Shown here: in pieces, positions 57,130 to 62,405 of the stretch
Layout: each line of letters starts with the position of its first letter
How positions within the stretch are numbered: position 1 is the stretch's first letter
NCBI RefSeq assembly: GCF_010499265.1
Contig: NZ_JAAGSC010000044.1
Span: 93,266 to 157,265 of the forward strand
Length of the DNA stretch: 64,000 nucleotides
Direction of reading: 5' to 3'
Source: Wenzhouxiangella limi
Lineage (GTDB): Bacteria > Pseudomonadota > Gammaproteobacteria > Xanthomonadales > Wenzhouxiangellaceae
Position numbers and translations under genes: made by a program
The notes under the pieces: generated by a model
Databases searched by the model: none
Seen by the model: the letters and a program-made list of their open reading frames with translations, nothing else
Told to the model about the DNA's origin: nothing

Positions 57130-57603
57130 CTACTTGAGCATGATTTCGCGAATCATGTATTCGCCCTGGATTTCACGAATCTCGTTGTATAGTTCGAGCA
57201 CCGTTTCGTTGCTGTTGTCCATGTTTTCTTCGCCCCAGGCTTTCATGAACTCGTTGTAGCGTTCCCGATCCGGTCCCATCGAATCCGAGTTGGGATATTT
57301 GATGACCAGCATCAGATCGAATGAGCCCCGCGCAACGGCCTGATTGGCATAAATGGCATAGTCTTCAATGTGCCCTAACTCTTTAGCAACCTCATTAGCT
57401 GCCACCCAGGTTGCTTTCAAACCTTCCAGATAGATATTGAATGTGCCGGGCTTCAGTTTCACCGTAGTCAGTGACCAATAGGCGTCGGAAGGCTCATAGT
57501 CTTCCCAAACCTTGAGTTGGGCAGATGCCGATGAGGCGAAGGTCAGTGTGATGAGGCCCAACAAGGCCAGCGAGCTGAAACGCAATGATTTTGACTGAAA
57601 CAT
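57130..57603 (-). CDS. Small secreted protein of unknown function
   Basis: A 157-residue protein with a signal peptide (SLRFSSLALLGLITLTFASS, cleaved after SASA). ATG 57603 has GAGGAAAA upstream; the frame continues to 58020 but without conserved features. The mature protein (SLTTVKLKPGTFNIYLEGLK, then IYANQAVARGSFDLMLVIKY and a Glu/Asn-rich helix) resembles dimeric alpha/beta-barrel (NIPSNAP-like) proteins by eye, not certainly. Base composition is visibly lower in GC than the surroundings. Confidence 0.7.
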   Translation of the reverse strand: MFQSKSLRFSSLALLGLITLTFASSASAQLKVWEDYEPSDAYWSLTTVKLKPGTFNIYLEGLKATWVAANEVAKELGHIEDYAIYANQAVARGSFDLMLVIKYPNSDSMGPDRERYNEFMKAWGEENMDNSNETVLELYNEIREIQGEYMIREIMLK

Positions 57604-57725
57604 AAATTTTCCTCGAATTGTTGTTTGGATAGAACTGCTTGAATAGCGATCGCGGCATGCGGTCGCATCTTCTGGTGTGCCACGGAGGCCACCAAAAGTT
57701 CTTTCGGCCATGACAGCGATGCTGC

Positions 57726-59120
57726 TCATGGCAATGCAATGCGCTTCATCTGAGGCGCTTTGCCGTAAGTCAGTGAGCGCCATAGCCACTCCATCGGTCC
57801 GTATCGGAACGACTTCAGCCACAGCAGCGAGAAAACGATTTGGCTGGCATAGATCACGCCAGAGAAGACGACCAGGGATTGAATCGACCAGAGACCCGCC
57901 TGATTCAGTCCGATGCCGTAGAAGACCGTCAGCCCGATCACGGTCTGGCTCAGATAGTTGGTCAGCGCCATGCGACCGGGCGCGGTAAGGACTCTCAGGA
58001 CGGGCGCTGCCTTCTGCCAAAGCAGCACAAATCCCGCGGCATAGGCAATACCGAGCGGGATCACGGCAAAGGTGTAGGCCATGACAGCAAGCAGCAGGGT
58101 GGACAATACGTACTGGATGCCGAACAGGATGCTGAAGATACGAGCGTCCTGCCAGTCATTGAGGGTCAGGCCGCCAGCCAGCGCGGTCAGGCCCAGACCG
58201 ATGAACAGACCAAACATCGTATTGCGCAGTCCAAAAAACTTCACCAGGAAAGGTGTTGCGGCCGCTCCGATGACTGCCGCGAGCAGGCTCATGGCGCTGG
58301 CGAAACTGCTGTACTGCTCGCTGGTCCAGCCCAACTGTTGTACGGCAAGCGTCGGCGCCACGGCGTCGGTGAAGGTGAACGTGGCCTGAGACAGGCCAAT
58401 ACCGAGCAGAAAAATGATGGTTGTCGGCACCATCAGGGCTTTGAACAAACCTTTGAGAATCGGCCACCACGCGTCCTGCTGGCGCGCCTGGCATTCGGCT
58501 GAGGGCTGGCCCTTGTTCCAGGGCATCAAACGCTCGCCGGGGCGCTCACGAAACAAGCTGACGAATCCGGAAGCCACGGCAACAAAACCCGCCAGCAGCA
58601 GCGCCATGAGGGTGATCTGGCCGGATGCCAGCAGCTGACCGGCGATGAACGCGGACGCGGAAAGCCCGAGTGTTTGGGCGGCGAACATGCAGCCGTTGAT
58701 CGTCGTGCGCTCTTCGTGCGGGACGATATCCATCGTCATGCCGTCGACCGCCACGTCATTGAAAACAGCGCACAGGTTGAGGGCAAAGAAGAACGCGGTG
58801 AGCGCGAAGATGTCAGCCGAGCCGGGGGCGCTCGCAGCCAGCGCCAGCAAGACCACCAGCATCATGTCCTGGCCCCCCAGAATCCAGGATCGTCGCCGAC
58901 CCATGGGCTTGAAGGTGAAGCGGTCCATCAACAGGCCGTTGAAAAGCTTCAGCGACCACGGCAGCAGCGCGGTGCCCACAAACGCGCCCACGGCGACCGG
59001 AGAGGCTCCGTCAGCAGCCAGCCAGGCCGGGATCGCGATGATCGACAGACCCACGGGAATGCCCTGCATGAAGTACAGCAGGACGATTGCAGCGAAGCGC
59101 GCGAGCCTGCTTTCCGACAT
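57726..59120 (-). CDS. MFS-type transporter fused to a DUF418 C-terminal domain
   Basis: About 464 residues. The first ~350 resemble the AmpG/acetyl-CoA-transporter branch of the MFS (FAAIVLLYFMQGIPVGLSII, MDRFTFKPMGRRRSWILGGQ, NDVAVDGMTMDIV). From about codon 350 (near 58073) the sequence changes to the C-terminal half of DUF418 membrane proteins (IPLGIAYAAGFVLLWQ, GRMALTNYLSQTVIGLTVFY, FRYGPMEWLWRSLTYG). The last MFS helices are missing, so this is an in-frame chimera, perhaps from a deletion between two neighbouring genes. ATG 59120 is preferred; 59174 is possible. Transport function is uncertain. Confidence 0.8.
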   Translation of the reverse strand: MSESRLARFAAIVLLYFMQGIPVGLSIIAIPAWLAADGASPVAVGAFVGTALLPWSLKLFNGLLMDRFTFKPMGRRRSWILGGQDMMLVVLLALAASAPGSADIFALTAFFFALNLCAVFNDVAVDGMTMDIVPHEERTTINGCMFAAQTLGLSASAFIAGQLLASGQITLMALLLAGFVAVASGFVSLFRERPGERLMPWNKGQPSAECQARQQDAWWPILKGLFKALMVPTTIIFLLGIGLSQATFTFTDAVAPTLAVQQLGWTSEQYSSFASAMSLLAAVIGAAATPFLVKFFGLRNTMFGLFIGLGLTALAGGLTLNDWQDARIFSILFGIQYVLSTLLLAVMAYTFAVIPLGIAYAAGFVLLWQKAAPVLRVLTAPGRMALTNYLSQTVIGLTVFYGIGLNQAGLWSIQSLVVFSGVIYASQIVFSLLWLKSFRYGPMEWLWRSLTYGKAPQMKRIALP

Positions 59121-59375
59121 GGCGGGCAGAAGGTGGGAGCGTGGAAGTCGATCAGTGTGTAAGACAACGCTCATAAATGGGCCCGAAGTGAGGTATATAT
59201 CTCGTTGAGAAAGCTTGGCCCTGATGCTTCGTGGGGGCAACGACGAAAGCGTCAATAGTTCGTCAAAGTTGTCCGCTGGCCAGACACACGGCAGCACTCA
59301 GCGCCGCTATTGCCGAGAATCGGCTCGTATTGGCCCAGAGATTGAATGCCGACTGAGCCGGCGGTGGCCCTGATG

Positions 59376-59888
59376 TCAGCCATTCTGTTGCGCGAGCGTG
59401 GAGAATTCGGTCATGCCGAAGGCCTCCAGCACGTCCCTGTCGAACGGCTCGACGGCCGCGTTGCGCTCGCGTACGCCGACGTCCACGCCGACCACGGTGC
59501 GGAAGGGGCGTCTGCCGGCCGGGGTATCGATCAAGGCGATGATCTCCGTGACGACCATGGCCGGATCAGTGGGGGTGTCGGGGTCGTTGAACATGCCGTC
59601 GAAGGCATCGCCGACCGACTTGTAGGCGGTGCGTGCGACCTCTGGATAGTCAGCCACGCGCTGGTCTGCGTCTGCCGGCTGGGGGCTGACTTCAAACAAG
59701 GCGGTGGCGAATGGGCCCGGTTCGACCACGACCACGTCGACGCCGCAGCAGGCCAGTTCGCCGCGAAGCGCCATGGAGTAGCCTTCCACCGCCCACTTGC
59801 TGGCATGGTAGACGCCGAAGAATGGCGCGCTCAGGCGCCCGGCGATCGAGCTCAAGTTGATGACCAGGCCGCTGCCGCACTTGCGCAT
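59376..59888 (-). pseudogene. 5'-truncated SDR gene
   Basis: A frame of 170 residues that starts at an internal ATG and matches only the C-terminal part of an SDR: LVINLSSIAGRLSAPFFGVY, HASKWAVEGYSMALRGEL (the Tyr and Lys of the active site), VVVVEPGPFATALF. The N-terminal Rossmann fold with the TGxxxGxG motif is absent. The open frame extends only to about 59940 without SDR sequence. It is probably a remnant of a deletion or recombination. Confidence 0.65.
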
Positions 59889-59919
59889 TTCCTGGCGAAA
59901 AGGCCAATTGATTAGGCGA

Positions 59920-60129
59920 TTACGGAAATGTCCTGTAGGCGTAACGCGTGTCGTTGCCGTTGCCGCATTCGCCGAAGCGGGCCATCAGCCGAGCCGGTAC
60001 GCTGCCTGCGTTGGTCAAGCCGGATTCCCATGCTTCATGGGCTCTGCCGAAAACCTCGGCATTGGCGCTGCGACCCAGCCAGTAGATCGTTTCGAGGTTG
60101 GAGATGTCTCCCGATTCGGTTCGAGCGCG
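59920..60129 (-). pseudogene. Unidentified gene fragment (C-terminal remnant)
   Basis: Between TGA and TAA a frame encodes ISNLETIYWLGRSANAEVFG, then AHEAWESGLTNAGSVPARLM and a short tail, with good coding character but no plausible start. It lies next to the truncated SDR in another frame and ends only about 30 bases before SDR sequence resumes. This suggests the two fragments were joined by a deletion. Family not recognised. The remaining 60130-60278 shows nothing. Confidence 0.35.
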
Positions 60130-60278
60130 TCACGCGACGAAAGGTCGGTAAATCACGTTTCAAACCATGGATGCAATCGGAGCAGAATGCGGGCTGCGGC
60201 ACAACTGCGTCAGCGTCAAACTATCGTCATTTCTACGTGGTTCGTTGCCGGTAAGAGCTAGCGTTACGACTTCGGCGT

Positions 60279-62405
60279 TCAGGCATCCGGGTTGGGCAGC
60301 AGATCCGGCCAGCCGTACTTGTCCCAGGCCGCCACAAGACCGATGCGCTTGGCAAAAGGTAGGAAGTCCGGATGCAGCCGGGTGTGCCGAATGGGCTCGA
60401 TATCCGCCCAAAGCGACATCAGGCAGTACATATTGGCTGGCGTGATCTGGATACCGAGGGTGTTGAAGACCATCTTGCTGTAGCCCATCCAGATCGCCGG
60501 TGCGACGATGCTGGTGTCGCAGGGATCGGGTAGGGTGGCGTGCAGGTAGTCGAGCATGGCGCAGTAAACCGCGCGATGGATTTTTCTTCCGCTGCAAACA
60601 CCCTTGGCGGCAAGCTTCCAGTAAGTATTCAGCGCCGGCCCGCTCAAGGGGCGGGTGCCGGCGGGCGGGAAGATCACGGTGTTCATCAAAAGCCGGGTCT
60701 GCCAGTACTGCTCCACGGCCAGCTCGCGATCGCCGGCGGCTGCTGTGGCGACGGCCATCCACATCGACGGCAGGCCGAGATCGACCATGCGCTGGCCGGC
60801 GGCAATGGCAGCCTCGAGGTTACCCAGATTAAGTTGAGCCACGCTTAGCATGGCGAAGTTTCGCCCGTTGACCGGGTCCTGTTCGATCGCTCCCTCGATA
60901 TAGGGCAGGGCCTCGCGCGTCCGGCCGATATAGAGCAGAAAAGACCCGAGCCGTAGAGTCACGTCCGGGTTGTCGGGCTCCAGGCGATGGGCCTCATGCG
61001 CCAGGTCCAGCGCGCCGACCGGATCATTCTCGGTCCAGCGATGGATGCCCAGCAGGGCACGGGCATGACCCTGGCCGGGGTCAAGTTCGATCGCTTTGTC
61101 GGCGCATTCGGCCATGCGGATAGACTGGGCGACTCGGTCGAGACAAGGTGTGTAGACAGCGGTGTAAGCATGGGCCTCGGACAGTGCGGTCCAGCCGGCG
61201 GCGAACTCGGGTTCGAGTTCCAGCGCCTTTTCCAGCAGTTCAATGGCCCGGGCCAGGACACCGTCGCCGATCGCGCGCATGGTCAGGGCCCGGCCCTGCA
61301 GATACAGTTCCATCGCTGTCTGGCGGCGCGCAGTATGACGAAGTTCGGGCGGGCGAACTTCGAGTTTGAGCTCGCGGCCGATCTCGCCTGTGACCGACTT
61401 TGCGACCTCGTCCTGCAGGGCGAGAAGGTCGCCGGTTGAGCCACGGTAAGTCCGAGCCCAGAGTTCGAAGCCGGAATGTCCGTCGACCAGGCTGACGTGG
61501 ACGCGCAGCTGCTTGTCCTGACGCTGGATCGAGCCATCAACCAGATAGGCGACGTTCAGAGCCTGAGCGATTTTCGTCAGCCGACGACCCAGTGATCTGC
61601 CATGCATGGAAGAGGTGCGTCCGGCCACCAGCAGGCGCGGCGCCTGCCCTAAAGAACTTATGAGCTCATCGAACAGTCCCTGAGCGATCAGCGTTTGTTC
61701 GCTATCGATTTCCGGCGACTGGAAAGGCAGCACGGCAATGCGGATGCGACGGTCAGTACCCGTCACGGCAGTGGAGGACGTACGCAAGCGCCAGGCGTCG
61801 CGCAAACGTCCTTCCGAGAGCCGATCGTTCCGGCGCTGGTAACCGGCCAGGGATTGTTCGACAGCAGTGAGCAAGCGCTGCTCGACCTGTTCGCGCTGAC
61901 CGGCCAGCCACTGCTTGAAGGCTTCGCCCAGATCAAGCTGGTCCAGCAGCGCCTTGCCGCTCACGGCGAGCAGCTGCTGGCTGGCGCTGGCGTCGGTGCC
62001 GTTGCCGAGAGAGCGTTCCAGCTCGGACAGGTCTGACGTCACGGCCGCGGCGTTGACGCTTACCCGGTCACGCGTGATTTCAAGGAAGTCCGCGCGAATC
62101 GCGGACAGTTGTCTTTTCAGCCCGAGCAGGGTCTGGCGCAGGCTCGCCCGGGCGTGGGCCCTGAACTTGCCTGGCCACAACAGCTGGCTGAGCCGCTCCC
62201 GATCCATGGCTGAGCCGGGGCTGAGGCAAAGCATGCCAAGCAACGCCTGGGGTCGCTTTCCGCTGATGACAATTTCAGTCCCATCCGGTGCGAAGAGACG
62301 AAAGTTGCCGAACAGTGAGGCCCGCAGCCTCAATCGAACGGGTTTTGCATGCTGTTCTCCCTGATCAAAGCAGCCTCGGAAGTCGATCGCGCAAGAACAC
62401 GGCAC
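60279..62405 (-). CDS. SARP-like transcriptional regulator with TolB-like and TPR domains
   Basis: A 708-residue cytoplasmic protein. Residues about 25-100 form a winged-helix DNA-binding domain with the SARP/AfsR pattern (LFGNFRLFAPDGTEI, KRPQALLGMLCL, LRQTLLGLKRQL). A bacterial transcriptional activator-type helical region follows to about 205. Residues about 218-335 are TolB-like (IRIAVLPFQSPEI, VDGSIQRQDKQLRVHVSLVD), and several TPRs cover about 365-570. There is no membrane helix. The start is uncertain: GTG 62405 is used, and TTG 62336 just before the wHTH is possible. It lies upstream of the catabolic run on the same strand and is the best candidate for its regulator. Confidence 0.82.
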   Translation of the reverse strand: MPCSCAIDFRGCFDQGEQHAKPVRLRLRASLFGNFRLFAPDGTEIVISGKRPQALLGMLCLSPGSAMDRERLSQLLWPGKFRAHARASLRQTLLGLKRQLSAIRADFLEITRDRVSVNAAAVTSDLSELERSLGNGTDASASQQLLAVSGKALLDQLDLGEAFKQWLAGQREQVEQRLLTAVEQSLAGYQRRNDRLSEGRLRDAWRLRTSSTAVTGTDRRIRIAVLPFQSPEIDSEQTLIAQGLFDELISSLGQAPRLLVAGRTSSMHGRSLGRRLTKIAQALNVAYLVDGSIQRQDKQLRVHVSLVDGHSGFELWARTYRGSTGDLLALQDEVAKSVTGEIGRELKLEVRPPELRHTARRQTAMELYLQGRALTMRAIGDGVLARAIELLEKALELEPEFAAGWTALSEAHAYTAVYTPCLDRVAQSIRMAECADKAIELDPGQGHARALLGIHRWTENDPVGALDLAHEAHRLEPDNPDVTLRLGSFLLYIGRTREALPYIEGAIEQDPVNGRNFAMLSVAQLNLGNLEAAIAAGQRMVDLGLPSMWMAVATAAAGDRELAVEQYWQTRLLMNTVIFPPAGTRPLSGPALNTYWKLAAKGVCSGRKIHRAVYCAMLDYLHATLPDPCDTSIVAPAIWMGYSKMVFNTLGIQITPANMYCLMSLWADIEPIRHTRLHPDFLPFAKRIGLVAAWDKYGWPDLLPNPDA

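Follow-up and report, generated by a model that had tools for sequence, protein, structure and literature searches.

An in-frame MFS–DUF418 chimera in a variable gene slot of Wenzhouxiangella limi, probably a leftover of serial deletions

Introduction

The 64,000-nucleotide stretch of Wenzhouxiangella limi DNA analyzed here (the window) contains an open reading frame that begins as an AmpG-like MFS transporter and ends as a DUF418 membrane protein. Such a frame raises the question of whether it encodes a new membrane protein or is what deletions left of two genes.

Results

Two truncated proteins share one open frame

A first-pass annotation of the locus had proposed an in-frame chimera of MFS and DUF418 sequences with an intact frame of 464 residues. 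This reading was borne out, both by the open minus-strand frame (Table 1) and by separate Pfam matches to each half. An upstream GTG start would extend the frame to 523 aa. In the first half, MFS_1 (residues 13-341, 58.7 bits) and Acatn (residues 9-159, 52.7 bits) both score above their gathering scores. The second half matches DUF418 (PF04235) at residues 341-454 with 113.7 bits, covering profile positions 48-163 of 163 only. In NCBIfam, the MFS part reaches 79.4 bits with the AmpG subfamily model TIGR00901, below its cut-off of 350; it also matches RhtX/FptX and the DUF418 part matches YeiB, all below the curated cut-offs. The chimera shares its N-terminal ~344 residues, TM1-10, with AmpG/SLC33A1-type MFS proteins (TIGR00901; PF13000, Acatn; PF07690), and among chains of solved structure acetyl-CoA transporter 1 and AmpG come nearest in sequence. 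The nearest homologue of the MFS part is only 37% identical; its GC3 (0.80) is similar to that of host genes. The DUF418 part shows 65-71% amino acid identity with DUF418 proteins of the Wenzhouxiangella family, a divergence from relatives equal to that of the flanking genes.

To locate the join, each half was aligned separately. DNA homology with intact DUF418 genes starts at 58089/58088 in the loci of seven out of seven relatives (BLASTN), and nine MFS homologues track the chimera to residue ~345, where they go on into a conserved SATQF…NLG helix (TM11) and then a last helix. Both helices are missing from the chimera, as had been suggested before. The codons around the join read …CTG CTT GCT GTC ATG GCC TAC…. 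The switch had earlier been placed near 58073 (residue 349); the region was right, but the join lies about 15 nt away, at residue ~344. Likewise the division into two parts holds, with ~344 and ~120 residues in place of ~350 and ~115.

An exact 12-bp direct repeat, GGCCATGACAGC, is present at 58077-58088, across the join, and at 57706-57717, just beyond the stop codon. The chance of such a repeat at that place in shuffled sequence is about 0.002, a value computed post hoc. The repeat is not visible in the spacer between DUF418 and the 157-aa protein gene of three relatives.

Table 1. Features of the chimeric reading frame and its surroundings (window positions)
Feature	Position	Strand	Basis
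MFS-DUF418 in-frame chimeric ORF	57726..59120	minus	open frame, ATG 59120, 464 aa
MFS part, residues 1-344, TM1-10, AmpG/Acatn-like transporter without TM11-12	58089..59120	minus	MFS_1/Acatn/BT1 matches, TIGR00901, alignment of full-length homologues
DUF418 part, last ~120 residues of host DUF418 gene	57726..58088	minus	identity to relatives, alignment
Junction zone, codons ~A-V-M-A, residues ~344-348	58077..58089	minus	start of DNA homology to intact DUF418, codon view
SDR remnant without the ~121 N-terminal codons (NAD(P)-binding half), ~176 C-terminal residues left	59376..59906	minus	71% identical to intact 299-aa SDR of G024
What is left of gene X (small secreted protein): stop codon and the ~58 codons before it	59920..60100	minus	comparison with G061, homologues
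Former upstream region of X, kept up to GGGAGA motif; ~198-bp deletion adjoins	60107..60237	minus	69% identical to the DNA preceding X in G061
Conserved regulator with TPRs, intact, 708 aa, left slot edge	60279..62405	minus	62-70% identical in relatives
Conserved secreted 157-aa protein, intact, right slot edge	57130..57603	minus	66-70% identical in relatives; no Pfam family

The chimera lies among other truncated genes

Between the two intact genes that form the edges of the slot, the window holds, in order, the X remnant, the SDR remnant, the MFS part and the truncated DUF418. The two gene fragments previously noticed beside the chimera are the C-terminal parts of SDR and X. In comparison with G061, X carries the same residue at 47 of 58 codons and has lost its start and 65 codons by a clean internal deletion of ~198 bp that included the start codon. 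The SDR remnant starts directly past the X stop, at SDR residue ~122. To these losses are added ~286 codons of DUF418 and TM11-12 of the MFS protein. No intact X, SDR, MFS or this DUF418 gene was found elsewhere in the host genome, which is 99.6% complete.

Since the genome is a draft of 44 contigs, we considered an assembly artefact joining two genes. This is highly improbable: the join sits within a 436-kb contig, the sequence on either side agrees with the conserved host locus, two neighboring junctions have the same character, and intact copies are lacking elsewhere in the genome.

Relatives carry intact versions of most of the genes in the same slot

The conserved row consists of the 708-aa regulator, the variable slot, the 157-aa secreted protein, a SnoaL-like protein, a glyoxalase, a second DUF418 in some genomes, a lumazine-binding-like protein and an NHL-type protein. 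In Wenzhouxiangella relatives the regulator is followed by a full DUF418 gene (406-435 aa) and then by the genes for the 157-aa protein, SnoaL and glyoxalase. A full DUF418 gene fills the slot in W. sediminis and Wenzhouxiangella sp. 15190 (L032, L033) and in G027, an intact 299-aa SDR gene in G024, and intact X in G061 and G062. Two genomes of the same genus, G003 and G011, encode DUF418 proteins that agree with those of W. sediminis and strain 15190 in the ORF starts compared, which points to the GTDB genus of Wenzhouxiangella as the source of the window. The stop codon of the regulator gene (~60274-60295) is where DNA collinearity with Wenzhouxiangella loci breaks off, and it restarts within DUF418 at 58089; in the loci of relatives, the end of synteny at this left edge of the slot falls at 60264-60297. 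The idea that the chimera may be a deletion product is supported by these loci, where DUF418, SDR and X, all truncated in the window, are intact in the same slot. Intact MFS was not seen there: the MFS part, sought alone in 30 genus genomes and 369 class genomes, was absent from the 29 other genus genomes, and an intact MFS-DUF418 pair was never seen at the locus within the genus.

The cluster itself (window 57130-62405; L147, L167, L168, L170) combines genes for a TPR-containing regulator, the 157-aa secreted protein, SnoaL, glyoxalase and lumazine-binding-like proteins, with the variable slot following the regulator. X (~123-142 aa; L171:3472-3897, L167:6560-6931) has no Pfam family and is found in few Wenzhouxiangellaceae, after or near the regulator.

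In Mangrovimonas sp. ST2L15 (L034:7947-10542), an Acatn/AmpG-like MFS gene is directly followed by a DUF418 gene in the same direction, so the ancestral order needed for a deletion exists somewhere. Gene order and direction are as in the chimera, but the Mangrovimonas genes are separate and intact, and they are ~29-30% (MFS part) and 46% (DUF418 part) identical to it; 1.13 kb separates the equivalents of the two breakpoints. The pair places a transporter related to acetyl-CoA carriers beside a probable acyl-CoA-dependent acyltransferase, which suggests a functional pair. Homology between the gene upstream of the Mangrovimonas MFS and the secreted 157-aa protein was unsupported (3 bits).

Serial deletions in a decaying slot probably made the fusion, and the chimera is likely a non-functional leftover of this recent decay. 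We infer an ancestral row of regulator, X, SDR, MFS, DUF418 and secreted 157-aa protein, with an intact MFS gene once beside DUF418, from which several deletions in the host lineage would have removed pieces. One of these, probably of ~1.1-1.2 kb, would have taken out TM11-12 of the MFS protein together with the spacer and ~286 codons from the start of DUF418, joining the two frames by chance. Repeated deletion within a single dispensable slot explains the locus most simply; the order of the events, like the loss of function, is part of the reconstruction.

A different and rather unlikely origin is replacement, in which a horizontally acquired MFS segment took the place of the 5' part of the host's DUF418 gene by illegitimate recombination, with no internal deletion of a neighbor pair. 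The absence of MFS from the 29 other genus genomes and the low identity of its nearest homologue would fit such an event. However, X and SDR, which stand between the regulator and MFS, belong to the slot in relatives, so the region is not simply foreign; moreover, the GC3 of the MFS part is host-like and the MFS-DUF418 order exists in Mangrovimonas. The simple insertion of one foreign block is weakened by the same presence of X and SDR in the relatives' slot.

The fusion was found in a single genome

The first-pass annotation had pointed out that the chimera would be an ordinary family if its C-terminus recurred in full-length homologues from many genomes. No such homologue was found in 399 genomes of the order: none covers both halves, which match two disjoint gene sets. 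Matches to the MFS half break off around residues 338-358, apart from a weak one that reaches 400, and the DUF418 matches lie in the C-terminal part. No homologue spanning both halves was detected in a pattern-based contig scan of 84,980 species, no full-length homologue in 43 family genomes, and no plasmid record covered 80% of the chimeric protein. The fragment region 59870-60320 had no plasmid match, and no report of such a fusion was found in the literature searched. Among the genomes searched the fusion is thus restricted to one lineage, represented by one genome. A widespread MFS-DUF418 family, the reading to which we give practically no credence, is contradicted by the scans of the 84,980 species and of the family, class and order genomes.

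A different extension occurs in the same MFS subfamily. In two genomes a C-terminal TFIIB-type zinc ribbon (PF13453) lies past TM12 (L146:6677-8476, L145:6542-8257), and the same CPKC segment appears in L176 in the alignment of MFS homologues. MFS-zinc ribbon is a natural, recurrent fusion and may deserve attention.

The predicted product lacks the DUF418 active-site helices and the last MFS helices

If made, the product would run through MFS TM1-10 straight into the final helices of DUF418; the helices of the acyltransferase active site would be absent, as would the last part of the MFS C-bundle. By alignment, the DUF418 loss corresponds to residues 1-286 of a 406-residue relative. The deleted part contains residues nearly invariant in the DUF418 family, among others D17, R20 and N31, which in intact relatives lie in helix 1 as D17-x-x-R20 and the asparagine N31. 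In the TmAT acyltransferase superfamily, to which DUF418/YeiB (PF04235) belongs, the arginine of the TMH1 DxxR motif is reported to be essential in several enzymes and the asparagine to be important in HGSNAT; the acyl-CoA site of AT3 proteins is reported to be made from TM1-4 and TM9-10 (PMC12423673). An intact DUF418 protein was modeled with moderate confidence and gave HGSNAT as its best but weak match (E 0.017). The chimera shares the last ~120 residues of the family, including the conserved GRMALTNYL.Q and EWLWR.LTYG segments, but not its first ~286. With all N-terminal DUF418 elements lost, it is very unlikely that the chimera acts as a DUF418-type acyltransferase.

An AlphaFold2 model of the chimera was built on a 57-row alignment. 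TM1-6 have pLDDT values mostly around 90 and residues 370-460, the DUF418 end, are predicted with high confidence; residues 198-345 have block means of only ~47-71 and the pTM is 0.57, low values that may partly reflect the shallow alignment. A single continuous helix, 323-370, runs through the join. The N-terminal bundle and the DUF418 end are thus predicted to fold well, the truncated MFS C-bundle not confidently. Foldseek returned SLC33A1 as best match and AmpG next, the best TM-score to these being ~0.37; the rmsd is low over the N-terminal bundle only and exceeds 15 Å in longer alignments. The model makes an active MFS transporter unlikely. Lacking both these active-site helices and the last part of the MFS C-bundle, the chimera is most likely a non-functional remnant, although against this its frame is intact and its DUF418 part keeps the conserved C-terminal residues.

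Low dN/dS in the fragments does not distinguish function from recent decay

In a branch test, the DUF418 part showed an omega of 0.132 on the window branch against 0.096 elsewhere, a difference that is not significant (2dlnL 0.47); the deletion may be too recent to register. The SDR remnant, deprived of its nucleotide-binding half, can have no SDR activity, yet its omega against the intact relative is 0.055. In the X remnant, 22 of 37 differences fall at third positions (raw counts). As the broken SDR has an equally low omega, low values here indicate deletions that are young compared with the divergence of the species, not fragments that function. Selection as proof of a functional fusion is rejected by this control.

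A random deletion between two co-directional genes preserves the frame one time in three. The earlier emphasis on an unbroken frame, read as pointing to function, is therefore unsupported: chance can keep a frame, and the adjacent broken SDR is equally conserved.

It is quite improbable that the fusion was selected, with DUF418 helices standing in for MFS TM11-12, either in a transporter that works or in a novel membrane protein. The open 464-aa frame, the omega of 0.13 for the DUF418 part on the window branch and the confidently modeled residues 370-460 would agree with selection. However, the fusion is known from one genome only, the adjacent broken SDR has an equally low omega, the truncated MFS bundle is poorly predicted, the DUF418 active-site helix is gone and other truncated genes lie all around. 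Slightly less probable again is that the frame is expressed and kept as a working hybrid carrier, an acetyl-CoA/AmpG-like transporter in which helices of an acyl-CoA-dependent membrane acyltransferase have taken the place of the last two.

Discussion

The frame is a real in-frame MFS-DUF418 chimera. It is most likely an ordinary deletion-born remnant of members of two known families. From AmpG/SLC33A1-type MFS proteins it differs by the lack of TM11-12 with the SATQF...NLG segment and by its score below the TIGR00901 cut-off, and from DUF418/YeiB proteins by the loss of the first ~286 residues with the TMH1 DxxR motif and the asparagine (PMC12423673). Bacterial fusion genes and pseudogenes born from deletion likewise consist of two co-directional neighbors joined in frame amid truncated genes, and the locus differs from ordinary cases only in packing three truncation events into 2.2 kb.

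If the fusion were functional after all, it would bear on how far the MFS fold tolerates replacement of TM11-12. The finding is a modest one: deletions in a fast-changing slot can yield an intact-looking fusion frame, one that automated annotation would label as a transporter. The SDR remnant next to it is a useful internal control, indicating that low dN/dS alone is no proof that a young fusion is functional.
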